Shown: piece after piece, positions 478 to 17,210 of the stretch | Numbering within the stretch: the stretch's first letter is position 1 | Layout: every line of letters starts with the position of its first letter | Source of the DNA: Candidatus Phycosocius spiralis | GTDB taxonomy: Bacteria; Pseudomonadota; Alphaproteobacteria; Caulobacterales; Aquidulcibacteraceae | Direction: 5' to 3' | Assembly: GCF_030158815.1 (NCBI RefSeq) | Contig: NZ_BPFZ01000005.1 | Coordinates: 1-64,000 of the forward strand | DNA length: 64,000 bases | Notes under the pieces: generated by a model | What the model was told of the DNA's origin: nothing | The model's input: the letters and a program-made list of their open reading frames with translations, nothing else | Database searches by the model: none | Translations under genes and position numbers: made by a program

Positions 478-676
478 GATTGCGTCATGAAGGCATCCCT
501 TATTCTAATATCTACACCAGTCCTGCAAGAGAGTGTCGATAATCATTCGCTTGCGATAGGTCGTGCCAGAGGTGGGGGTGCGTAGACTTAGGGTCATCGG
601 GCAGGCTTTAGGTCAAGGACTTGGAACGGTTCAAGGGCGCGCTTTGCTTGCCTTGAAGCCGTGCCCGATGATGCCT

Positions 677-1914: not shown

Positions 1915-2155
1915 GGGGGGGACGAAAACTTGGAAAAGGGCGGTCCATGGGACTGGATAATGCTAGGTAAAGCGTCAATGATCTTAAATGACTTGGAAGG
2001 GAGGGGTTTGCTGCTCATTAAAACGTGACTTCTAACGTTTGTTTCACAACTTGAATTATTCCTCTAAGCTATGTCAATTTAATTTTTGTCCATTAGGGAA
2101 GCTTGAGGCATTGGGACCGTCAAGCAATATAGTTTCCGGACAAGGAGATTGGATC

Positions 2156-2455
2156 ATGCGTACATTGACAGTAGAAGAAGCTGATTTTGTAAGTGGTGGC
2201 TGGTTGCATGTGATGCCAGGTGAATCGTGGGGTGACCCACAAAGTCTAAGTGCTGCATCCAACGCCAATTGTGCCGGAACGGCGGGACTTACTGGCGTTA
2301 CAGCTGGAATGGGAGTCGCCGCTATTGCGATAGCAACTACGCCAGTTGGGATGGCTGTTGCGACGGTTGGGACATTTCTTGGGCTATTTTTTGGCTCGGT
2401 GGCCACGGCCGGTGCCTGTATGCCTGAACCCAAAAGCGAGAAAAAAGCCAAATAG
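2156..2455 (+). CDS. Double-glycine-leader peptide, bacteriocin-like
   Basis: A 99-residue peptide precursor. The start at 2156 is set by AAGGAG at 2142-2147; the longer frame from 2039 lacks such a site. The first 15 residues, MRTLTVEEADFVSGG, match the leader type cut after GG by C39 peptidase/ABC exporters (hydrophobic and acidic spacing, V-S-G-G). The mature part starts WLHVMPGESWG, then becomes a long Gly/Ala/Val/Thr-rich helix-prone stretch with GxxxG-like spacing (about residues 40-85), and ends in a Lys-rich tail. Two Cys flank the hydrophobic part. A paralogous leader occurs at 3130. Export and antibacterial action are inferred; no exporter is in the window. Confidence 0.7.
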   Translation: MRTLTVEEADFVSGGWLHVMPGESWGDPQSLSAASNANCAGTAGLTGVTAGMGVAAIAIATTPVGMAVATVGTFLGLFFGSVATAGACMPEPKSEKKAK

Positions 2456-2697
2456 GACAATATGACAATATGAGAAATTGAATTTTTTTGTTTTTTTACC
2501 TTCTGCAAAACTCGGTCGGGAAGCGAAAAGCAAATTTGAACCTAGGGTTGTCTATGAGTTTAATGCATCTAATTCATGGGCAACCCAAATTCAGTACTTT
2601 ATATCATCTTGGTTCAAAACCATTAAGTGATGCAAAAGAGAAAAGTTTACAGAAACACGGTATTTGAATCTTCAACAATCAAACCGGGAACAAGTTA

Positions 2698-2985
2698 ATG
2701 CAATTTAATGGATCAGTTGACTTGATGGATTGGGTGACCAATTATTCTGTGTATCTGGCCATTTTTTTAAGCGCCGTCCAGGTCATTTTCGGTGGCTATA
2801 TAGCAGGCAGCAATAAAGTAAAATTGAAGGTAAAGGTATTTTATAGTGTATTGCTAATTCTATATGGCATTTTAGTGTTTGTACTCCTCTTTGAACTGAA
2901 ATTTTGGCTATGTTTTTTTATGTTCGTTGTTCTATATTTGACTTTGTATTTGGTCTGGAGGCCCAACAAACAATCAGAGATTTGA
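2698..2985 (+). CDS. Small three-helix membrane protein, possible immunity protein
   Basis: A 95-residue protein made almost entirely of three hydrophobic segments (about residues 16-37, 47-67 and 69-86), with Lys-rich loops between the first and second and a charged C-terminus (RPNKQSEI). It has no recognisable family motif. It lies between two double-glycine-leader peptide genes on the same strand, where bacteriocin loci commonly encode small membrane immunity proteins. That role is an inference from position and shape. The ribosome-binding site is weak (GGGAAC about 8 nt upstream). Confidence 0.6.
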   Translation: MQFNGSVDLMDWVTNYSVYLAIFLSAVQVIFGGYIAGSNKVKLKVKVFYSVLLILYGILVFVLLFELKFWLCFFMFVVLYLTLYLVWRPNKQSEI

Positions 2986-3129
2986 GCGGTTCAACAGGAC
3001 AGTAACAGGAAATAACCTAGATTAAAGTCCGCAATTTAATGAATGTGTGACGTTGCTGTTTTAGCGATGCTCGTCAAAGTTCCGCCCACAATTATTGAAG
3101 TTTACGTGTCCATCAGACCCCCACTATTC

Positions 3130-3363
3130 ATGAGTACATTGACAGTAGAAGAGCTGGAATATCTGAGTGGGAGTCTGGGGCCTGTGGCCATTGTTGCGGT
3201 TAGGGCTGGCGCTGGCGCAGTGCTAGGTGCCGCGGCAGCGGCTGTTAACGAGGCTAATGAAGACGGCCAATCTTTTTCTGATGCAGGCAAAATAGCCGGA
3301 GCAGCAGGTATGGGTGCTGTAGCTGGTGCTGTCGGTGGCTTGTTTAAGGTCAAAGGTTGGTAG
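3130..3363 (+). CDS. Second leader peptide, GS variant of double-glycine type
   Basis: A 77-residue precursor starting at 3130. Its leader MSTLTVEELEYLSGS closely matches that of the peptide at 2156 (TLTVEE...SG), and the DNA is identical over at least 17 bases (TACATTGACAGTAGAAG). The expected GG is GS here. The mature part is Gly/Ala-rich (repeated AGA, GAVLGAAAAAV, GAAGMGAVAGAVGG), like pore-forming class II bacteriocins and microcins. A longer in-frame extension to 3043 lacks leader features and is not favoured. Upstream SD is poor. Function is inferred. Confidence 0.65.
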   Translation: MSTLTVEELEYLSGSLGPVAIVAVRAGAGAVLGAAAAAVNEANEDGQSFSDAGKIAGAAGMGAVAGAVGGLFKVKGW

Positions 3364-3428
3364 CACTATTTGGTTACCGGTCAAACAGGTTGCCATTGTT
3401 TAGCCCCCAACCATCCCTAGGAAGGAAA

Positions 3429-3716
3429 ATGATCTTAATTGCCCTAGCCTGCTGCCTGGCCGATGTCGTGACGACCTATATTGGCATGAAGTTGATCGGC
3501 CATGGCGTCGAAAGCAATGGATGGGTCGTTAAATTGGCAAGGCGGTTTGGCTTGCCCTGGGCGTGTGGCTTATAGCTCTGTCTTGAAGGATTGATCGTCT
3601 ATCTTAGTTCTTTGTTTGGGTTTGAAGCTGCGACTGCTGCGGTTTTTGGCACGGCAGCCGCTTGGAACACCTTCGTCATTCTTCGGTTTCAGTGCCGCAA
3701 AGACAAAAAAACCTAG
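3429..3716 (+). pseudogene. Small membrane protein gene interrupted by in-frame TAG
   Basis: The start ATG at 3429 has AAGGAA upstream. The first 48 codons (ALACCLADVVTTYIG, then SNGWVVKLARRFGLPWA) end at TAG 3573-3575. The same frame then continues for another 46 sense codons with coding character (GLIVYLSSLFGFEAATAAVF, then AWNTFVILRFQCRKDKK) to TAG 3714-3716. Together they make a 95-codon membrane protein resembling DUF5658-type proteins (D..TTY.G....E.N at one end, AWN..V..R at the other). Either a nonsense mutation has killed it or the stop is read through. Confidence 0.6.
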
Positions 3717-3735: not shown

Positions 3736-4209
3736 TCAACCCGGCACCGCTTTGGCGAGTTTTCTGGCAAAGCTTGAAATGGCGCGATCGGTGTCAGACC
3801 ATGTCCAGCTTCCTTGCGCCCAAGCTATATCGCCGTTCCATGTATGATCGGCTTGGCCGATCAGATTGCCCGCACCATCATAGGCCTTACCCGAGATATC
3901 AGCGCCGCCAATGCCAAAGCTTTGCATCGATAAGCCAGGGCGATCCCCCATTTGTTTTTGAGTAGGACGATTGGCGGTTAGGTCGTTGATGACAACCTCA
4001 ACGCGGGCTGCCCTTGTGCCGAGTTTGTCTTTTAAGTTGCGGTCTATCAAGTCAAAAATGACAGACTTTTCGCGAACACCATAAGTCTCTGTCATCTTTT
4101 TTTCCGCCTTCTCGCTATATGAAACACTGACTTGCAAAGGGTCCGCCGCAGCCACTGAGCCCAAGCATAAGCCTAAGACTAAGATAACTATGGATAATAG
4201 TTTCATCAT
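3736..4209 (-). CDS. Secreted protein of unknown function
   Basis: A 157-residue protein with a clear signal peptide (MMKLLSIVILVLGLCLG, cleavage likely after SVAAA). The mature part starts DPLQVSVSYSEKAEKKM, contains an RVEVVINDL strand and an ADISGKAYDGAGNLIGQADH section. This looks like a periplasmic lipoprotein-like fold in which a tunable expression term is built from small beta strands, but I do not recognise a named family. The start at 4209 is preceded by GGAGAG on the minus strand; the 14-residue longer frame is not needed. No Cys lipobox, so periplasmic rather than lipidated. Confidence 0.7.
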   Translation of the reverse strand: MMKLLSIVILVLGLCLGSVAAADPLQVSVSYSEKAEKKMTETYGVREKSVIFDLIDRNLKDKLGTRAARVEVVINDLTANRPTQKQMGDRPGLSMQSFGIGGADISGKAYDGAGNLIGQADHTWNGDIAWAQGSWTWSDTDRAISSFARKLAKAVPG

Positions 4210-4346
4210 ATACTCTCCTCTTGAAAAGCTTGCTGAAGATGATTGTAGCATGTAGGCACCCGTTGATTAAGTTGAAATGACCATTTGACCATCCTTTTAT
4301 CAGCACTTTAAATCAGAGACGTTAGGGTGCCAGGTCGGATCAATAT

Positions 4347-4901
4347 TTAGATCTTGGGTCTTTGAAACACGATGGTGGCTTCGCCAAACACTATCCCGAA
4401 TTTTTTGACTTTAGCGCGATTGATCAAAACCCCATCGCTTTGCAGCCACATGCGATCATCAAAGGTCACCACAACAGGGCGATTGTCGATTTTAAGTTCA
4501 ACATCATAGACCCACGCCAATTGATTACCCTGCACAAGGCCACGGGCGACTCCGCGCACATCGCCTGCACGACCTTCATAAGTAGTCGGGCCCGTTTTCT
4601 TGATCTTCCAGACGCGGCTTTCTTTAGCGCCGTCGGCATAGTCAAATTGTTCGTCAAGGGTCAGGACAGAGCCATCCCATTGACCGGTGATGTCCACCTT
4701 AAACTGACGGATCAAGGTGCCGCTACGGTCCTGAAATACGCCCCAAGCAGTGGTTTTACCCTGGAAATAATCTTCCAGCACAAGGTTTTGCGGGGCCTTT
4801 GCGGTGGGCGGCGAGGCGGTGGTGGCGCAGCCCGCCAAGCCAAAACTAAGGGCAGCGAACGATGCGCCAATGGCGGTTGCTTTACTAAGGGCTTTGAACA
4901 T
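4347..4901 (-). CDS. DUF3833-family lipoprotein
   Basis: A 184-residue protein with signal peptide and lipobox (FGLAGC, Cys about residue 22), so a lipid-anchored envelope protein. The rest matches the DUF3833 pattern: LVLEDYFQGKTTAWGVFQDR near the N-terminus, a long beta-rich middle (G.WDG..LTLDEQF.Y.DG) and a DDRMWL.SDGVLINRA.V.KFG end. Family members are often encoded near fatty-acid or chalcone-isomerase genes; none is adjacent here. Function is unknown. Start chosen at 4901, with AGGGGA upstream, because it gives the lipoprotein signal directly. Confidence 0.8.
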   Translation of the reverse strand: MFKALSKATAIGASFAALSFGLAGCATTASPPTAKAPQNLVLEDYFQGKTTAWGVFQDRSGTLIRQFKVDITGQWDGSVLTLDEQFDYADGAKESRVWKIKKTGPTTYEGRAGDVRGVARGLVQGNQLAWVYDVELKIDNRPVVVTFDDRMWLQSDGVLINRAKVKKFGIVFGEATIVFQRPKI

Positions 4902-4983
4902 GAGTGATCCCCTTTCAAAGACGATACGCGCAAGACCGGGTAGCGGTTCATGGCCATCACAGTCACACGCGATCCATTTTAGC

Positions 4984-5682
4984 TTAAGGTGCGTCAACCA
5001 ACACCAATTCGGCGTCCACCACCGCTTGGATCGTCAAGATCGGCTCATCCTTAATGGCCGCCCCATCGCGTTCATAAAGATCAATCCCATTGAGCGTGAC
5101 AACACCCTTTGCCGCCGCAAGATAGGCGTGCCGGCCAGCGTCAAGCGCGTAGGAGACTGTTTCACCCGCACGCAAGCTTGCTCCCATTACCCGGGCCTTT
5201 TGGCGAATGGGCAGGGCTTGGCTATCCTCGCTAAAGCCCGAAGCCAACGTCACAAACTGGCCAGAGCGGTCGCCTTTTGGAAACTTTGCAGCCCCCCACG
5301 AAGGTGGCGCACCCTGGGCCTCTGGCAAAATCCAGATCTGATACAATTGGGTCTTAGTGGTTTCCTTATTGTATTCGGCGTGGGTGATGCCATTGCCGGC
5401 ACTCATTACTTGGACGTCACCAGCTTCTGTGCGCCCAACATTGCCCAGACTATCTTGGTGCGTGATGGCCCCTTCGCGCACATAAGTGATGATTTCCATA
5501 TCTGCATGGCTATGGGGATCAAAGCCGGTGCCGGGCTCAATCTCATCATCATTCCAGACCCGGATGGTGCCCCACTGGGTGCGCTTTAAGTCGTGGTACT
5601 GGCCGAAGGAAAAATGATAGCGGGCATTAAGCCAGTCGTTTTTAAACCGGCCAAGGCTGTTGAATTCGCGTTTTTCGATCAT
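4984..5682 (-). CDS. Pirin-family cupin protein
   Basis: A 232-residue bicupin. The N-terminal cupin carries the pirin metal-binding pattern: FDPHSHADMEIITYV about residues 53-67, then GDVQVMSAGNGITHAEYN about 89-106, so the usual two to three His and a Glu are present. The C-terminal half has the typical ALPIRQKARVMGASLRAGE linker and second cupin. Pirins of this YhhW type can act as quercetin dioxygenases or redox-sensitive regulators; which applies cannot be told. Start at 5682 has AGAGG upstream. It is divergent from the TonB receptor at 5872. Confidence 0.88.
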   Translation of the reverse strand: MIEKREFNSLGRFKNDWLNARYHFSFGQYHDLKRTQWGTIRVWNDDEIEPGTGFDPHSHADMEIITYVREGAITHQDSLGNVGRTEAGDVQVMSAGNGITHAEYNKETTKTQLYQIWILPEAQGAPPSWGAAKFPKGDRSGQFVTLASGFSEDSQALPIRQKARVMGASLRAGETVSYALDAGRHAYLAAAKGVVTLNGIDLYERDGAAIKDEPILTIQAVVDAELVLVDAP

Positions 5683-5871
5683 GTTTTGCCTCTTAGCCCT
5701 ATAGATAGGTGCGCGATCTAAACGCACAATGGGCATGCCAGTTCACTTTTACCAGTGTGTCGCCACACTGTCATCGAAAGGAGAAAATACCGACACAAAT
5801 CGCTGAAGTTTCTGTCACCATACCATGATAGCGCCTCGATCAATTCAAACACATCCAAGGTGCATCCTCCC

Positions 5872-8247
5872 ATGCTTCAAAATAAATCCACGGCTACCAA
5901 GCTGCTCCTTCGCTCAACGGCACTCGCAGGCTTTCTCGTCGCCGCTGCGACCCCTGCTCTGGCGCAATCTATTAACCCAACACGTGAGCTCGAGGTCCAA
6001 AGTGACGTGATTATTGTTACAGCCCAAAAGCGCGAGCAGCGGCTGTTGGACGTTCCTTTGGCGATCACCGCTTATAGTGGGTCAACGCTGGATCGCTTGG
6101 GGATCGAGCAATTTGACGATTTGGCGCTTTATGTACCGGGCCTAGAAATCCAAGAGCAAAGCCCCAATAATCCGGGCTTTGTGATCCGCGGTATTACATC
6201 TGACGACGGCTCAGCGACGGCGGAGGCGCGAGTTTCTGTCTTTCAAGATGGCATAGCGATCTCGCGGTCGCGGGGATCCTATGTTGAGCTGCACGACATG
6301 GAACGGATCGAAGTGGTTAAAGGACCGCAATCGACCTTGTTTGGTCGTGGCGCACTCATTGGCGCCATCAGCTTAATCCAGCGCAAAGCCGACCCTATAG
6401 GAGGTATCTACGGCGATGCGAGCGTTGGGTTTGGGGATTTGAATTATCGCGTCGCTCGCCTTGCAGTAAACTTGCCGATAGTGAAAGATACGCTGGCCGT
6501 GCGGCTGTCAGGCATCGTGAAGCAACGCGATGGCTATGTCAAAAATGCATCGGGCGGACCAGCTTTTATGAGCCAGGATGTGAGCGCTTGGCGGGCGTCG
6601 GCCGCTTGGGCGGTCAATGATCGATTGCGCTTTGACCTCATTTATAACTGGCAACAAGATCAACCAACTGGAACCTCGTTTAAGTCCAGAGCCTATGCCC
6701 CTCCAGGTGGCGATACGCTGCCATGGACGGCAGCGGGCTTGTCTAAATTTACCGATCCGCTCGGCAGTCAGTTTGAAGGTGGGCGCGACCTAGGATTGGA
6801 TCGGACCGTGCAAGGCGCGACGTTGCTTTCGGCCTATGATTTAGATGACCATTGGACCTTAAACAGCATTACGGGCTGGCGCTCGTTTGAATCGCTGGAG
6901 GTATTTGATCCCGACGGCTTGGCCTCTCAGGTGCTTCTATTTGCAGAAGATGCTCAAGGTGATCAGTTCAGCCAAGAGTTTCGCCTCAACTTCGATGATG
7001 GCGGGCGATTAACTGGTTTTGGCGGCCTTGGGTATTTTGAAGAGAGCGGCTTCCAGCGTGTGCCATTGCAATATGACGAACGCGGGACCTTGGCGCTCTT
7101 TGCTGCTTTGACAAGTGGTCGTCCGGTTACGGCGCTATTCTCGCCTGCCACTTTCCCAAATTTCCCATCCAATGCAGTTTTGGGTGCAATATTGACCACA
7201 CCGACCCGACTACCATTTAAACCGATCCATCAAGAAGAATTCCAAAACTGGGGCAAAACCCGGGCTGTCGATTTGTTTGCGGACATGACCTATAGCGTCA
7301 ATGAACGCTTGGAAGTCTCCGCCGGTGTGCGCGCCACCAATGAGGCCAAGACCTCAAGCTATCGCGGCCGCTTGATTAACGGGCCTTCAACAATTACGGG
7401 CGGCGGCTTGTTTGCTAACCTGACCCCTGGGACAGAACCTGCTTCTAATGATGATAGTTATGACGGTTTCACCTGGCGCGCTGTGGCGCGCTATGATTTG
7501 AACAAGGACTGGAATAGCTATTTGAGTGTGGCACGCGGGCGGCGCAGTGAAGTGCTCAATTATAATACGGGTCGGCGCGCCTTTGAGACCATCCCGGCAG
7601 AGATCGCTACGTCAGCAGAATGGGGCCTGAAAGGGGTCGCCTTTGATGGGCGGATGCAGCTTGAGGCGGCTCTCTTCCATTATATCTACGAAAACTTCCA
7701 AACTTCAGTCCGCGATGGCGTTGCTATCCGACCCATCAATGCTGGCAACGCTACCACGACTGGTTTTGAAGCGACTGTCCAAGTCGATTTGATCAAAAAG
7801 CATTTGCGCGGGCTGATCACTTTCAGTCAGGCCAAGGGACGCTTTGATGATACCGATAGCGAAGGACGCCCGCAGGTATTTGCTGGCAATAGCTTCCGAC
7901 TGTCACCCGACCAAACCGGCTCACTGGCTTTGATCGCCGATTTTGACGGGTCTTGGGGCGCAATCTCGGTCACGCCGAGCTACACCTTCCAAAGCAAAGT
8001 CTATTTCGACAATGACAATCGCGCCGACAAATCCCAAGACGGCTACGGCCTCTTTAACCTGCGAGCCCGCTATACTTTGCCCAACAAACTGGCCGGATCA
8101 GAATGGGCTTTTGAAGTATTTGGGAATAATTTGGCGGATGAAAACTATATCATTGACGCGGGTAATACGGGCGATGTGTTTGGTATCCCGACCTTTATTG
8201 CCGGGCCGCCGCGTACTGTTGGCGCCCAAGTTGTGGTGCGCTTCTAG
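5872..8247 (+). CDS. TonB-dependent outer-membrane receptor
   Basis: A 791-residue receptor. A signal peptide (ALAGFLVAAATPALA) is followed by a TonB-box-like VIIVTAQKREQ, a plug domain (DVPLAITAYSG, LALYVPGLEIQ, IRGI, then RIEVVKGPQSTLFGRGALIGAISLI about residues 143-168) and a long barrel ending with the aromatic C-terminus VGAQVVVRF. This is the Caulobacter/sphingomonad-rich class of receptors. Substrate is unknown; neighbours give no clue. The start at 5872 is chosen over the earlier frame from 5755 because it begins just before the signal peptide. Only a weak AAGG precedes it. Confidence 0.9.
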   Translation: MLQNKSTATKLLLRSTALAGFLVAAATPALAQSINPTRELEVQSDVIIVTAQKREQRLLDVPLAITAYSGSTLDRLGIEQFDDLALYVPGLEIQEQSPNNPGFVIRGITSDDGSATAEARVSVFQDGIAISRSRGSYVELHDMERIEVVKGPQSTLFGRGALIGAISLIQRKADPIGGIYGDASVGFGDLNYRVARLAVNLPIVKDTLAVRLSGIVKQRDGYVKNASGGPAFMSQDVSAWRASAAWAVNDRLRFDLIYNWQQDQPTGTSFKSRAYAPPGGDTLPWTAAGLSKFTDPLGSQFEGGRDLGLDRTVQGATLLSAYDLDDHWTLNSITGWRSFESLEVFDPDGLASQVLLFAEDAQGDQFSQEFRLNFDDGGRLTGFGGLGYFEESGFQRVPLQYDERGTLALFAALTSGRPVTALFSPATFPNFPSNAVLGAILTTPTRLPFKPIHQEEFQNWGKTRAVDLFADMTYSVNERLEVSAGVRATNEAKTSSYRGRLINGPSTITGGGLFANLTPGTEPASNDDSYDGFTWRAVARYDLNKDWNSYLSVARGRRSEVLNYNTGRRAFETIPAEIATSAEWGLKGVAFDGRMQLEAALFHYIYENFQTSVRDGVAIRPINAGNATTTGFEATVQVDLIKKHLRGLITFSQAKGRFDDTDSEGRPQVFAGNSFRLSPDQTGSLALIADFDGSWGAISVTPSYTFQSKVYFDNDNRADKSQDGYGLFNLRARYTLPNKLAGSEWAFEVFGNNLADENYIIDAGNTGDVFGIPTFIAGPPRTVGAQVVVRF

Positions 8248-8275
8248 GGCTCGAAGGACAGTGGGGCCATCAGGA

Positions 8276-9106
8276 TTATCGAGCGATCGCAAAGACCAAT
8301 ACTGTTCCCCCTTGCGAGGCGCTTAAGGTCATAGTTGAATCACTTAATGCCATCACATCCACACGGGCGAGGGCTTGGAGATATGTTGTCTCCAACTCCA
8401 TAGGGTCACCAGTGATTGCAATACAGGCACGTTGCGAGATGGTTAAAACAATTATTTTGGACTTGCCTGCCTGGCGGGTATGGAAACCGCTAAAGTGATT
8501 GCATCCAGAATATCCAGAAAGGGTGTTTTGTTGAAAGGCCAAAGTAGGTTTTGGACTATCCTTGCTGATCTCAACACCATTCATACGCGTGAGGACCCAG
8601 GTGTGCCCATAAAGGCTAAGTCCCTGATCAGCACGCGGGCTAGTTACGGTTAAGCGCATCAAAATCTTATTATGATTGCCTAGCAGGCGCACCTCGTCCC
8701 CCAAGGCTTCAAGACGGCGGGTGGCTTTGAGGGATGATAAGGTCAGGTTATCGAGCTTTGCCAACTGGCCCAAACAGTTTGCTTCTACGTTTGTTGCAAC
8801 ATTCAAGCGCGTGGTACCATTGGCACCGTGAATCAGCCTACCTGAAAAAGCCCGGCAGCCCGAAAATCCAGCAATCCGATTTTGATCCAAAAAGCTGATG
8901 CGGGGCCTCTGGGCTTGTTGGAACCTGCTCAGCTCTGCGCCATCAAGCTGTTGAGCGACGAATTCACCATCTAGGCTAAGGACCGGGGCAGGTGCACCTT
9001 TAGGAGGGGCGTTGACTTCTTGTGCTTGCGTTCCCCCCCCCCATAGGCTGATAGCAAGGCTTGCCGCTATCATGCGATGCAAAACGCCAATTAAATTGGG
9101 TCCCAT
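8276..9106 (-). CDS. Exported protein with two META (HslJ-like) domains
   Basis: About 276 residues. After a signal peptide (IAASLAISLWGGGTQAQ) come two META-type repeats: one with RIAGFSGCRAFSGRL (about residue 80) and one with LYGHTWVLTRMNGVEI and LSGYSGCNHFSGFH (about 185-225), each with the family's GC(N/R).F.G signature. META proteins are envelope proteins of mostly unknown role; E. coli HslJ affects novobiocin resistance. Start 9106 supplies an Arg before the hydrophobic core but overlaps the SDR gene by 16 nt; ATG 9073 is the alternative. A run of ten G encodes the W-G-G-G in the signal peptide. Confidence 0.75.
   Translation of the reverse strand: MGPNLIGVLHRMIAASLAISLWGGGTQAQEVNAPPKGAPAPVLSLDGEFVAQQLDGAELSRFQQAQRPRISFLDQNRIAGFSGCRAFSGRLIHGANGTTRLNVATNVEANCLGQLAKLDNLTLSSLKATRRLEALGDEVRLLGNHNKILMRLTVTSPRADQGLSLYGHTWVLTRMNGVEISKDSPKPTLAFQQNTLSGYSGCNHFSGFHTRQAGKSKIIVLTISQRACIAITGDPMELETTYLQALARVDVMALSDSTMTLSASQGGTVLVFAIAR
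9033..9042 (-). repeat. G10 homopolymer inside a signal-peptide coding region
   Basis: Ten C on the plus strand, ten G on the coding strand, within the signal peptide codons of the META protein (9106-8276). A one-base slip would truncate the protein within a few dozen codons. Such tracts are typical phase-variation switches in other bacteria; that use here is inference. Confidence 0.7.
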
Positions 9107-10008
9107 GTAAAAACACCATTTGTGGCTTCTAAACCGGTGAACCCACCTGCCAAAGCGGGCATACCATGCTCGATCAGTGTTTCTGGTGTCCATCCATCAA
9201 TCCTCGAAACCGAGCGAACAGGCCGTGGTTGGTCAAAGATGACCAACTCATTGCCGCGCACGCCAAATATCTGGCCACTGATATGGCTGGCTTGGGATGA
9301 ACACAAGCTGACTGCAACAATTGCAACTTGGTCGGCACGCATTTTGGTGCGAAAGCGCTCTACCCGTTGGGCGCTGGCATCATCCTTAACCGGTATCGTG
9401 GCAATCATGCGCGTCCAAGCAAAAGGCGCGATCACATTGGCGCGCACATTTTTCAGGGCCCCTTCCATTGCGATAATCCGCGAAAGGCCCACAACCCCCA
9501 TTTTTGCCGCCGCATAATTGGCTTGCCCGATATTGCCAATGAGCCCAGAGGTAGAGGAAAAGAGCACATAGGCCCCATCCTGCTGCTCCCGAAACAATTC
9601 AATACTGGCGCGCGTCACATTAAAAGCTCCGCGCACATGCACATCGATCACTATGTCCCAATCGGCTTCAGACATTTTATGAAACATGCCGTCACGCACT
9701 ATACCAGCCGGGTTGATGATGGCATCCAGGCCGCCAAAACAATCCTTGGCCTGTTCAATCATGCCTTGGACGCTTTTGAAATCAGTGACGGAGTCTGTAT
9801 TGACCACAGCCTCACCCCCTAAAGCCTTGATCTCATCAACGACGCTTTGGGCAGGCCCAATTGAACCTTCATCGCCACCTGTGACCGAGCCCCCCAGATC
9901 ATTGACAACAAGCTTGGCTCCGACTCTTGCTGCGTGCAAAGAACATGCGCGGCCAATGCCATTGCCGCCACCCGTAATCAAAATGACTTTGCCGTCGAGT
10001 ATGCCCAT
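9091..10008 (-). CDS. Short-chain dehydrogenase of the MFE-2/HSD17B4 type
   Basis: A 305-residue oxidoreductase. The Rossmann motif is TGGGNGIGRA (about residues 13-22), followed by VNDLGG after strand two, a trait of the peroxisomal multifunctional-enzyme-like (3R)-hydroxyacyl-CoA dehydrogenases. The catalytic part shows NPAGIVRDGMF (usually NNAG), S-T-S, and YAAAK (Y/K). The N-to-P change in NNAG is unusual but still in the active-site loop. The C-terminal 60 residues (FDQPRPVRSV..) are typical of this subgroup. Likely substrate is a hydroxyacyl-CoA. MGILDGKV at 10008 is the usual family start; ATG at 10026 is possible. Confidence 0.85.
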   Translation of the reverse strand: MGILDGKVILITGGGNGIGRACSLHAARVGAKLVVNDLGGSVTGGDEGSIGPAQSVVDEIKALGGEAVVNTDSVTDFKSVQGMIEQAKDCFGGLDAIINPAGIVRDGMFHKMSEADWDIVIDVHVRGAFNVTRASIELFREQQDGAYVLFSSTSGLIGNIGQANYAAAKMGVVGLSRIIAMEGALKNVRANVIAPFAWTRMIATIPVKDDASAQRVERFRTKMRADQVAIVAVSLCSSQASHISGQIFGVRGNELVIFDQPRPVRSVSRIDGWTPETLIEHGMPALAGGFTGLEATNGVFTWDPI

Positions 10009-10050
10009 GACATTTCTTTCTATCATTGTGTCTGCTTAACCTATTCAAGA

Positions 10051-11319
10051 TCAGGGGTTTATTTTTTGACCCTCTGGCGCTGCATCCTCAAACCGATCGG
10101 CTATGGCTAAGGGCTTAAAGAGGCGCATCCAAGCGCCAGCGATCAAGATGGCTCCAATTCCCCCGGCAACTACCGCTGTAACAGGGCCCAATAAGCGCGC
10201 CGCGACCCCGGATTGAAACTCACCCATCTCGTTGGATGCGGAGATAAAGACATAGCTGATCGCTGAAACCCTGCCGCGCATCGCATCAGGGGTTGCCAAT
10301 TGCACCAAGCTTGAGCGGACATAAACTGAAATCATGTCGGCCGCGCCAGCAATCACCAAACAAGCTACCGATAACCATAAGTTAATAGATAGGCCAAAAC
10401 CCAAGGTTGCAAAACCAAATACAAACACCGCCCCAAACATCCAACGACCGACTTGGCGCTTAATGGGCACAATGGCAAGGATTATGGAGACAAGGCCTGC
10501 CCCCACCGCACTGGCAGAGCGTAAAACCCCCAAAGCTGTTGGACCCGCTTGTAATATATCGCGGGCAAAAACCGGCAACAGTGCGGTAGCACCAGCCAGT
10601 AAAACAACCGCCAAATCAAGACTGAGAGCGCCCAACACAATCTTATTGTCGCGTACATAAAGCAGTCCTTCTTTGATCATCGCCAAAGTACGGCCACTAT
10701 CTAGTTTTTCCTGGGCTGGGGCTTTGGTCAAAAAGGCTAATAGCCATCCCCCACAAAAGAGTGCGAAGGAGACGCTATAAGGTATTGCAGGCCCAAAATG
10801 GAATAAGAGGCCGCCCAAGGCTGGCCCGATGATGGAACCCCCTTGGAAGCTTAATGACATAAGCGCGATGGCTTGAGGTAATGCGTCGCGTGGGACGAGA
10901 TTTGAGACCATGGCAGAACTGGCTGCTGGTAAAAACGCATTCAACATGCCGGTCACAATCGCAACACCAAAAATTGCCATAATCATGGAAGCAGGCGCGT
11001 AATGCGATGCTATCACCAGCGCAGCCGCAATCCCAACCTTTAGCGCTATACAGCCCAAAATGATCAAGCGGCGGTCAAATCTATCTGCTGCCTGCCCCCC
11101 TAGCAGGGACAAAATCAATAGAGGCAGAAACTGTGAGAGGCCAATCAGGCCCAGAAGAAATGCGCCTTGCTCGATGCTGTCGCCGCGGGCGCGGGCCATG
11201 TCATAGACTTGCCAGCCCATCGCGGTGATCTGGATTTGTGTACCCAATGTCCACAACACTCGTGCCGACCAATATCGGGCGAAGGAGGGATGCGCGAAGG
11301 GGGCAAAGGTTGTTCTCAC
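10051..11319 (-). CDS. MFS transporter, enterobactin-exporter-like (MFS_3)
   Basis: A 422-residue protein with about twelve hydrophobic helices. The N-terminus RTTFAPFAHPSFARYWSARV is typical of this subgroup, and the loop between helices 2 and 3 has GGQAADRFDRR, the MFS motif A. ALPQAIALMSLSFQGGSIIGPALGGLL marks helix 5 (motif C region). The initiation codon is GTG with poor SD. Inner-membrane drug or siderophore efflux is plausible from the family. It is 42 nt upstream of the SDR gene on the same strand, possibly one transcript. Confidence 0.85.
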   Translation of the reverse strand: MRTTFAPFAHPSFARYWSARVLWTLGTQIQITAMGWQVYDMARARGDSIEQGAFLLGLIGLSQFLPLLILSLLGGQAADRFDRRLIILGCIALKVGIAAALVIASHYAPASMIMAIFGVAIVTGMLNAFLPAASSAMVSNLVPRDALPQAIALMSLSFQGGSIIGPALGGLLFHFGPAIPYSVSFALFCGGWLLAFLTKAPAQEKLDSGRTLAMIKEGLLYVRDNKIVLGALSLDLAVVLLAGATALLPVFARDILQAGPTALGVLRSASAVGAGLVSIILAIVPIKRQVGRWMFGAVFVFGFATLGFGLSINLWLSVACLVIAGAADMISVYVRSSLVQLATPDAMRGRVSAISYVFISASNEMGEFQSGVAARLLGPVTAVVAGGIGAILIAGAWMRLFKPLAIADRFEDAAPEGQKINP

Positions 11320-11410
11320 GCCGTTGTGATGGGGCAGTGAAAGGTCTGGGTCAATGCAAGCCCTGCATTTGAAACATCATGAATTGCGACTGCGCGCAGA
11401 GATGTGATGA

Positions 11411-13222
11411 TTAAAGGGGTGCCGTTGCAGCCTCAAGCCAAGCCCGAACATCCTTGTCTAGTTGGGGGCCAATTTCAGCAAGAACCCGCGCGTGATACTG
11501 ATTGAGCCAAGTAAGCTCTTGTGGACTTAACATCGACACTTCGATCAGCCGTCGATCGATCGGGGCTAAGGTTAAGGTTTCAAAGCCGAGCATGGGCCGT
11601 TCCCCACCGGCAATTGGCGCAGCATTGGTTACAAATTGCAAGTTTTCAACGCGAATGCCATAGCCATCAATTTTGTAAAAGCCAGGCTCATTGGAAACAA
11701 TCATTCCCGGCTCAAGTGCCACATGATTGGGGATTTTTGCAATCCGGTGTGGCCCTTCATGCACGCCCAAATAAGCGCCAACGCCATGACCAGTCCCGTG
11801 ATCATAATCAAACCCACCTTCCCACAAGGATAGCCGTGCCAAGGCATCTAATGCCGATCCGGTGGTGCCTGGGGGGAAACGCACGCGAGACAAAGCGATA
11901 TGGCCTTTGAGGACACGGGTAAAGCGATCCTTCATTTCAGCACTGGGAACACCCACAGCAATCGTACGCGTGACATCGGTGGTGCCATCCAGATATTGCC
12001 CCCCTGAATCCAATAAAAATAAATTATCTTGATCCACAGGGCGATTGCTTTCAACCGTTACCCGATAATGTGGGAAAGCACCATTGGGGCCTGCCCCGGA
12101 AATAGAGTCAAAGGAAAGATCCTGCAAAGCACCAGTCGCGATCCGGAATCCTTCAATAGCTTTACAGACATCAATCTCGGTGAGATGGCCTTTAGGGGCT
12201 TGATGATCAAACCAATGCAAGAAATTCGCTAAAGCCACACCATCGCGTGTATGGGCGCGCTTGGCACCCGCAATCTCAACAGGGTTTTTAAGCGCGCGTG
12301 GTAAGATCGTTGGATCAGCGCCGCGCACGACTTGAGCACCGGCTGCATCAAGAATATCAAACACATGAGCAGAGGTTATGGCGGGATCAACTAAGACCCG
12401 TTTGCCCTTGGTGCCTTGTAAGGTGTAGGCAAAGACTTCTTCATCATAGAGAGAAACCTCATTGCCCAAGAAGCCGCGCAGCGCTGGGGTTACTTTTTCC
12501 GGCTTTACAAACAATTGAGCTGTACCGTCTTGCAGCAATACCGCGCTGCCCAGCACAAGAGGTGTTCGGGTCACATCTTTGCCGCGAATGTTAAATAGCC
12601 AAGCTAAGGCAGCGGGTGAAGTTAACACACAGAGTTCAAGACCGTCACTGGCCATTTTTTCACCGATGCGCGAACGTTTGGAAGCGCTGGTTTCGCCAGA
12701 AAAAGCCAGAGGATAGGGTATGATTTCCGTAGTGGGCTCCTTTGGGCGATCTTGCCACGCCCGATCGATGGGATTGACTGAAAGCGCAATCAATTCAACG
12801 CCTGCTTGGCTCGCGGATGTTTTTAATCGCGACAAAGCATCTGGGGCGATCAAGCGCGGGTCATAGCCAATTTTAGTCCCTTCTGATGCTTCTGCTCGAA
12901 GCCAATAGGCTGGGCCTTGTTCAATTAGGTCACGTTGAAGAAACAATTCAGCGGCGGTTTGATTGCGTGCTTGTTGAGAATAGCGCCCGTCAGTAAACAA
13001 AAAAGCTTGATCTTTTAGAATAATGGCTGCACCTGCAGAACCTGTAAAGCCTGTAGCCCAAGCTAAGCGTTCGCCACAATCTGGCAAATACTCATTTTGC
13101 CACTCATCCTCATGGGGGACAAAAATGCCATCAAGTCCTAAATGCTCTAACTGAGCTCGGATCAGGGGAAGGGCTTTGCGACCTTGGTCAGCACCTCCGC
13201 GTACATCATATGTTTGATACAT
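11411..13222 (-). CDS. Xaa-Pro aminopeptidase, M24B family
   Basis: A 603-residue cytosolic metallopeptidase that removes an N-terminal residue before proline. Two creatinase-like N-terminal domains (LDGIFVPHEDEWQNEYLP near residue 31) precede the pita-bread M24 domain. The metal ligands are visible: LLDSGGQYLDGTTDVTRT (Asp, Asp), GTGHGVGAYLGVHEGP (His), VSNEPGFY (Glu) and GIRVENL (Glu). Length equals that of the long eukaryote-like XPNPEP1 group common in alphaproteobacteria, so it is complete. Only weak SD is visible upstream. Confidence 0.92.
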   Translation of the reverse strand: MYQTYDVRGGADQGRKALPLIRAQLEHLGLDGIFVPHEDEWQNEYLPDCGERLAWATGFTGSAGAAIILKDQAFLFTDGRYSQQARNQTAAELFLQRDLIEQGPAYWLRAEASEGTKIGYDPRLIAPDALSRLKTSASQAGVELIALSVNPIDRAWQDRPKEPTTEIIPYPLAFSGETSASKRSRIGEKMASDGLELCVLTSPAALAWLFNIRGKDVTRTPLVLGSAVLLQDGTAQLFVKPEKVTPALRGFLGNEVSLYDEEVFAYTLQGTKGKRVLVDPAITSAHVFDILDAAGAQVVRGADPTILPRALKNPVEIAGAKRAHTRDGVALANFLHWFDHQAPKGHLTEIDVCKAIEGFRIATGALQDLSFDSISGAGPNGAFPHYRVTVESNRPVDQDNLFLLDSGGQYLDGTTDVTRTIAVGVPSAEMKDRFTRVLKGHIALSRVRFPPGTTGSALDALARLSLWEGGFDYDHGTGHGVGAYLGVHEGPHRIAKIPNHVALEPGMIVSNEPGFYKIDGYGIRVENLQFVTNAAPIAGGERPMLGFETLTLAPIDRRLIEVSMLSPQELTWLNQYHARVLAEIGPQLDKDVRAWLEAATAPL

Positions 13223-15396: not shown

Positions 15397-17210
<1,814 letters not shown>

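Follow-up and report, generated by a model that had tools for sequence, protein, structure and literature searches.

A probable lineage-specific bacteriocin cassette with two double-glycine leader precursors and a small membrane protein in a Caulobacterales genome

The window analyzed here covers the first 64 kb of C5, a contig of a Caulobacterales genome (G000; 2.5 Mb, 48 contigs). According to the ORF list, it carries near its left end three frames, all on the forward strand, in the order pre1, a hydrophobic 95-aa ORF and pre2 (Table 1). This is the arrangement described in an earlier note on this DNA, which had reported two precursors around a small membrane protein. The 95-aa gene is separated by 242 nt from pre1 and by 144 nt from pre2. 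In-frame starts were also listed further upstream, a TTG at 2039 and an ATG at 3043. The sequence AAGGAG precedes the pre1 start at 2156, and no ribosome-binding site was visible ahead of pre2 at 3130. Neither promoter-like enrichment nor a terminator-like site between pre1 and pre2 was found. The contig begins 2,155 nt upstream of pre1, leaving the left side open. In this interval, a 235-aa orphan frame on the reverse strand (940–1647) with a CLCSC lipobox-like start adjoins the cassette and could encode an orphan partner protein; as a relative of the partner proteins described below it was rejected, giving no match at E 0.01. Directly 3′ of pre2 (3429–3716) lies a membrane-protein-like frame, broken by a stop at 3573–3575.

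Table 1. Coordinates of the cassette features and of the right-flank marker in the window.
Feature	Position	Strand	Remarks
pre1 5′ stretch with ribosome-binding site, CCGGACAAGGAGATTGGATC	2136..2155	+	BLAST and alignment; common to other G000 leader genes
pre1, 99-aa precursor	2156..2455	+	Leader 1–15, MRTLTVEEADFVSGG; mature part 84 aa
pre1 double-glycine leader coding stretch	2156..2200	+	
Candidate immunity protein, 95 aa	2698..2985	+	Hydrophobic, three TM-like stretches
pre2, 77-aa precursor	3130..3363	+	Leader 1–15, MSTLTVEELEYLSGS; mature part 62 aa
pre2 leader coding stretch	3130..3174	+	C6c-leader match begins at ATG
171-aa ORF	3736..4251	-	Marker of conserved right flank

The mature part of pre1 has two cysteines flanking a hydrophobic, Gly/Ala-rich stretch and a polar tail, MPEPKSEKKAK; that of pre2 consists of 29% Ala and 21% Gly. 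Both have a net charge of 0, and each precursor contains one GxxxGxxxG glycine zipper, GTFLGLFFG at residues 72–80 of pre1 and GAVAGAVGG at residues 62–70 of pre2. The leader and the Gly/Ala-rich, Cys-bearing body presumably resemble those of microcin V. The mature parts had been said to differ from each other, and indeed no similarity between them was detected at E 0.01. The AlphaFold model of pre1 was poor (pLDDT 56), with helices at 28–52 and 63–87 of low confidence. The 95-residue protein had been called a three-helix protein; hydropathy did indicate three TM-like stretches, whereas the single-sequence AlphaFold model was plain helical, with two long helices at 3–34 and 39–93 (mean pLDDT 78). 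Pfam and NCBIfam searches with pre1, pre2 and the 95-aa protein returned nothing over cut-off. Below the 21.5-bit cut-off, pre2 matched TIGR03949 (lactobin A/cerein 7B class IIb bacteriocins) with 16.9 bits and E 0.004; pre1 was absent from the matches to this model. PDB sequences searched with pre1 and pre2 gave nothing meaningful, and plasmid sequences searched with pre1 and the 95-aa protein gave no match.

The leaders end in GG in pre1 and GS in pre2, a difference that had already been pointed out. They had been reported to match over at least 17 identical bases; the longest DNA word common to both is 19 nt (at 2160 and 3134), occurs nowhere else on either strand of the window and is absent from the six other G000 leaders. 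A leader regex, composed after the leaders had been seen, matched twice in the window and not at all in 30 first-order Markov sequences of equal length. When 64 bases of pre1, including 20 bp before the ATG, were searched against genomes, five other G000 leader genes were found at 78–80% (E 4e-8 to 5e-10) and pre2 at E 2e-5, with 93% identity across some 30 bases; among the eight congeners there was one match, in G008 (E 0.004), and none in the other seven. A C6-leader DNA query found seven matches in G000 (pre1 included), nine in G008 and one each in G002, G005 and G006, with no match in G001, G003, G004 or G007. Both searches combined, G000 has at least eight leader genes: three on C6 (a, b and c), those on C10, C19 and C3, pre1 and pre2. 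The genome search for further leaders that the earlier note had proposed thus yielded six more, beside the exporters and elsewhere. Its expectation of relatives with a conserved leader was borne out for the leader itself, in G008, G002, G005 and G006, whereas the same mature parts were found in none.

Compared codon by codon with the six other G000 leaders (pre2 set aside), pre1 shows 6–8 synonymous and 2–4 non-synonymous changes, where about 23% of random single changes are expected to be synonymous. The corresponding numbers are 4–6 and 4–6 for pre2 against those six leaders, and 2 and 6 for pre1 against pre2. Judging from these sequences, a recent local duplication of the pre1 and pre2 leaders is possible; it is made doubtful by the pre2 leader, which over its 45 bases has 12 differences to pre1 and 9 to C6c.

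The two precursors might instead be independent one-peptide bacteriocins that are neighbors by chance, pre1 with the 95-aa protein as its immunity protein, and pre2 with an immunity gene that is either missing or represented by the broken frame at about 3429–3716. The affinity of the whole pre2 leader to C6c and the dissimilar mature parts are consistent with this explanation, as are the other G000 members, which come singly with one partner each, and the excerpted text of PMC5380434, according to which 14% of Cdz-like systems have two adjacent proteins. On the other hand, the 19-nt word exclusive to pre1 and pre2 among the G000 leaders hints at a common local history, and no terminator-like site separates the two genes. 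We consider two independent bacteriocins unlikely, although this is the alternative that deserves the most weight, and prefer to treat the three genes as one cassette.

The earlier note had placed the exporter elsewhere and had set a genome search for a C39 ABC exporter as a test of its reading in advance. Pfam PF03412 scored over cut-off at four places on C6, representing two complete 730-aa ABC exporters and two N-terminal remnants; in the Pfam search of the contigs, C39 exporters in G000 were found only there, so that the note had placed the exporter correctly as far as this assembly goes. The two exporters, identical at 712 of 730 positions, carry the motifs ECGLAC, HYVVL and HDPARG, placing Cys43, His116 and Asp136, which we take to be catalytic. 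The CvaB triad, as given in excerpts of PMC9746304, agrees with Cys, His and Asp of the exporter as catalytic residues. When the window was searched by tblastn with exporter and adaptor, the sole match covered 40 residues (E 0.057). The best of 190 matches of the exporter, to the NHLP bacteriocin exporter model TIGR03796, reached 460.5 bits, short of the cut-off of 853.3. In its best segment, the exporter is 92–95% identical to copies in Hyphomonadaceae bacterium UKL13-1, Candidatus Phycosocius, Aquidulcibacter paucihalophilus and, as incomplete copies, two MAGs, which suggests that G000 belongs near Aquidulcibacter within the Caulobacterales. The order in relatives is exporter, divergent leader gene, partner gene and 487-aa adaptor (loci L010, L011 and L014, and L127 with a partial exporter); the L127 adaptor matches HlyD_3 over cut-off.

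A full adaptor is present in five of the eight congeners (G001, G002, G003, G005 and G008). The match in G004 is only 35% over 161 residues, and none was found in G006 and G007. G006 has a leader gene without an adaptor, and G001 and G003 have an adaptor with no leader gene found. In the 48 contigs of G000, the HlyD-type adaptor is represented only by 5′ pieces of 28 to 53 residues, measured as 28, 52 and 52 on C6, and nothing else speaks as strongly as this fragmentary state against the system working in this assembly. The adaptor may sit in an assembly gap, because the C6 array described below ends in a transposase close to the contig end. HlyD-family proteins on C15, C1 and C12 adjoin proteins of 532, 1044 and 1083 aa; they were set aside by context as adaptors of this exporter, their neighbors being MFS- or RND-pump-like by size, and one of them could still serve. 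TolC-type PF02321 proteins are encoded on C14 and C12.

Somewhat less likely still than two chance neighbors is a decaying cassette, i.e., one that was formerly functional and is now left without a complete exporter and with pre2 weakly translated. The adaptor fragments, compared with full 487-aa copies in most congeners, would fit such decay, and so would the lack of a visible pre2 ribosome-binding site and the stop-broken frame after pre2. Against it, pre1, the 95-aa gene and pre2 are intact frames, the differences between the pre1 leader and the others are mostly synonymous, and the adaptor could lie beyond the C6 transposase. 

The C6 array (L007, C6:128000-147500, from 8029 onward, and into L008) opens with a full exporter; cargo a and its hydrolase-like partner of 681 aa come next, followed by an adaptor remnant. 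In the middle are the second full exporter and cargo b with a 186-aa lipoprotein-like partner, after which an adaptor remnant reaching to residue 52 is joined to an exporter remnant from residue 93. The array ends with cargo c, its 659-aa S9-like partner, an identical 52/93 junction and the transposase (rve, HTH_21). Because the junction is present twice, recombination presumably caused a duplication here. We take the array to resemble the orphan toxin–immunity modules of contact-dependent inhibition (CDI), in that displaced tandem cargo–partner units keep flanking secretion-gene fragments; the two presumably differ in that CDI relies on type V secretion and the large CdiA, whereas on C6 the exporter is of the C39 ABC type and the precursors measure about 130–160 aa. 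Upstream of the exporter array, L007 4587–4861 holds a tandem repeat whose unit measures about 85 bases. A repeat is also common to the left end of C5 (window 574–626 and 743–849) and the end of C6 (L008 4544–4695), and is found in L124; this is perhaps a dispersed repeat where the assembly broke.

The mature parts of the six other G000 leader genes are 113–141 aa long and show no similarity to pre1 or pre2. As partner, the gene following each cargo was picked by eye; the scan covered 13 partners, seven in G000 and six elsewhere. TM-like stretches or a lipobox-like motif were seen in five of the seven G000 partners (C6b, C10, C19, C3 and the 95-aa protein of the window); the hydrolase-like partners of C6a and C6c had neither near the start. 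The same features were present in four of the six partners outside G000 (G008-C46, G002, G008-C35a and UKL13-1); they were lacking in G008-C35b, and the Phycosocius partner had an internal stretch only. Cargo–partner gaps in G000 were −32, −10, 126, 112, 4, −4 and 242 nt, the last being that of the window, and did not exceed 126 nt in six of the seven. The C6c pair recurs in G006, at 52% over 119 aa for the cargo and 39% over 644 for the partner, and the G008-C35a pair in Phycosocius, at 69% for the cargo and 49% for the partner. Three comparisons, at E 0.01, argue against strict pairing: C6b and C19 have 39% similar cargo and partners without a match; the UKL13-1 partner is like the G008-C35a and Phycosocius partners (29–31%) without a cargo match; and the C6a partner is like one of G008-C75 (26%), again without a cargo match. 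The cargo match between C3 and G002 is confined to the first 28 mature residues (54%), suggesting a modular build.

Of 17 mature parts, 12 had a loose motif, [VIFLMT][VITFA]V[TVWPK][AGR], no more than 60 residues past the leader, and we take this motif to be like the TonB boxes of receptors and group B colicins. The regex was composed after the sequences had been seen; among 2000 composition shuffles, the mean was 0.71 and no shuffle reached 12. A strict form (VT, then A or G) was present in seven of the 17. The background was taken from residues 16–75 of another 305 ORFs at 25 loci, without de-duplication; 11 of these ORFs contained the loose motif and two the strict motif, both of the latter being TonB-dependent receptors with plug domains. 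Not counted among the 17 were same-gene duplicates in overlapping loci (L008, L010, L014 and L046) and five of the nine G008 DNA matches, which gave no full precursor by regex, one of them being a 20-residue frame. The motif is carried by five of the six G000 leader genes outside the window, and is lacking in C6c, pre1, pre2, G006 and G005. Leader genes bearing it (VIVTA, IIVTG and the like) lie at L120:4769-5236, L121:5151-5612, L122:5272-5742 and L007:10378-10839 and 15415-15885, and each adjoins a membrane, lipoprotein-like or hydrolase-like partner.

The cassette itself is lineage-specific. pre1 was found only in G000 among 60 family genomes (none in the 59 others), and the 95-aa protein only in G000 among 299 order genomes (none in the 298 others). 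When the order was searched with pre2, nine sequences outside G000 matched (E 0.001–0.009) and were rejected as relatives, being low-complexity stretches; eight lay inside frames of 244–676 aa and one contained a stop. The 171-aa ORF, a DUF3833 gene and a pirin-like gene occur together in all eight congeners without the cassette, and at E 1e-3 the matching loci (10.7–13 kb each) yielded no pre1, 95-aa protein, pre2 or 235-aa ORF. The TonB receptor of the window (5755–8247) had no match at these loci either, and therefore the conserved block comprises only the three genes. To see whether C5 and C6 join, the next conserved gene of the congeners, presumably QueC-like, was traced; in G000 this gene group lies on C2, so that synteny is broken and C5 and C6 may or may not be neighbors. 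The GC content is 0.36–0.50 over 2001–3500 vs 0.51–0.56 over 4501–12000. Together, the absence from congeners, the location of the next gene group on C2 and the low GC suggest that this stretch was gained or rearranged.

The cassette was then compared with known systems. In excerpts of PMC5380434, Cdz-like proteins are described as 60–151 residues long, with G[G/A/S] at the end of the leader, one or two glycine zippers and a short charged or polar C-terminus. The window precursors agree in length (99 and 77 aa), leader end (GG in pre1, GS in pre2), zippers (one each) and C-terminus (MPEPKSEKKAK in pre1 and, weakly, FKVKGW in pre2); no type I exporter was found within about 10 kb, on a contig that starts 2,155 nt upstream of pre1. 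As in the excerpted description of CdzC/CdzD/CdzI, the contact-dependent bacteriocin of Caulobacter crescentus, there are two small glycine-zipper proteins (86 and 84 aa there) and a type I exporter, and both belong to the Caulobacterales. Three TM stretches are predicted for the immunity protein CdzI; the 95-aa candidate immunity protein has three by hydropathy, against two long helices in its AlphaFold model. This likeness is one of description, and unlike the order cdzC-cdzD-cdzI, that in the window is peptide–membrane protein–peptide, with the exporter on another contig and the adaptor not seen in full.

Class II microcin signals end in GG or GA in the excerpted PMC9746304, which fits pre1 and does not fit pre2. 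The C39 ABC exporter with Cys, His and Asp is present (PF03412 and motifs); of a membrane fusion protein, only 5′ fragments were found in G000. For the remaining two of the five microcin components, the TolC-type proteins on C14 and C12 and the 95-aa protein are candidates. Like class II microcins such as microcin V (excerpts of PMC9746304 and PMC12511343), the cassette combines a double-glycine signal, a C39 ABC exporter and a small membrane protein nearby; unlike them, it has two peptides, one with a leader ending in GS. The same excerpts state that microcin V is not predicted to have its own TonB box, in which it differs from the other G000 cargo with TonB-box-like motifs. The nap island of Neisseria gonorrhoeae, as excerpted from PMC11798529, similarly has several GG-motif helical peptides and one immunity-like protein; its mature parts are 16–36 aa, cationic and autolysis-linked, compared with 62 and 84 aa and a net charge of 0 in the window. 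Since the exporter proximity of Cdz-like systems, the full adaptor of microcins and, in pre2, their signal end were lacking, the cassette was filed in neither class. By analogy, it most likely works like one or the other. Known microcins all come from Enterobacteriaceae according to excerpts of a review (PMC10233263), and the excerpts of PMC3482391, on polymorphic toxins, do not treat C39-exported precursors of this sort. Among the matches listed in the open-licence literature on microcins, C39/double-glycine leaders (alphaproteobacteria included), TonB boxes and Phycosocius bacteriocins, no description of the leader family was found.

These comparisons suggest that the locus is probably a lineage-specific bacteriocin cassette, Cdz-like or class II microcin-like, with a putative small membrane immunity protein and export in trans. 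Speaking against it are the fragmentary adaptor, the GS end and missing ribosome-binding site of pre2, the gaps around the 95-aa gene, which are wider than most in G000, the orphan status of pre1 and the 95-aa protein, the low-complexity nature of the pre2 matches, the poor pre1 model and the lack of promoter-like enrichment. That pre1 and pre2 are exported leader peptides is very likely; all steps beyond leader homology are inferred. An exporter on C6 would use its C39 domain to cut after GG in pre1 and GS in pre2, and would then secrete both mature parts in trans. These peptides, each having a hydrophobic stretch that contains a glycine zipper, might insert into or aggregate at the membranes of competitors, either separately or together as a Cdz-like pair, joint action being a rather doubtful proposal. 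The 95-aa membrane protein would shield the producer.

The earlier note had left the choice between a bacteriocin and a signalling cassette. A bacteriocin is the better reading because immunity-type partner genes recur beside other members, and signalling is less favored. Double-glycine leaders serve pheromones as well as bacteriocins, and the toxicity of pre1 and pre2 is only putative, as would be compatible with peptide signals exported by a C39 transporter. However, no sensor or regulator was recognized among the few neighbors scanned, the mature parts (84 and 62 aa) are large, hydrophobic and zipper-bearing, and an immunity-type partner is present, making signals very improbable. That the frames are open by chance, as the orphan status of pre1 and the 95-aa protein and the post hoc regex might allow, is scarcely credible given the homology of leader and upstream DNA to leader genes elsewhere in G000 (E down to 5e-10) and the absence of matches in the 30 randomized windows. 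The earlier interpretation is supported in the main; it had not anticipated the fragmentary adaptor, the larger leader family, most members of which have another build, or the restriction of the cassette to one lineage.

Whether this probable bacteriocin cassette also stands at the margin of a polymorphic microcin system, one with arrays of orphan modules in which a single C39 exporter serves many scattered precursors, appears evenly balanced to us. In such a system, the precursors would have in common a mobile start module, consisting of ribosome-binding site and leader, followed in many by a TonB-box-like entry motif and then by exchangeable toxic bodies, each adjoining an antidote of its own, which would be a membrane, lipoprotein-like or hydrolase-like protein. 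Recombination at leader and exporter ends would bring in new bodies, and old ones would persist as tandem orphan modules with clipped adaptor and exporter genes. If true, the eight precursors with a common leader and the one exporter type of this Caulobacterales genome would amount to a natural library of peptides, possibly able to cross outer membranes. Cargo with TonB-box-like motifs would make microcin passage via the Ton system directly testable, and the window pair would be a Cdz-like variant without the motif, possibly with another way in.

In L125 and L126 (G008, C72 and C75), several further leader matches are clustered; for some of these the regex gives no full frame, and small ORFs of hydrophobic appearance lie in between. 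Large S9/alpha-beta-hydrolase-like proteins lie near some of the cargo (L007:10808-12853, L008:555-2534, L128:4189-6234 and L126:7734-9830), and possibly provide immunity by cutting the peptide or act as modifying enzymes.
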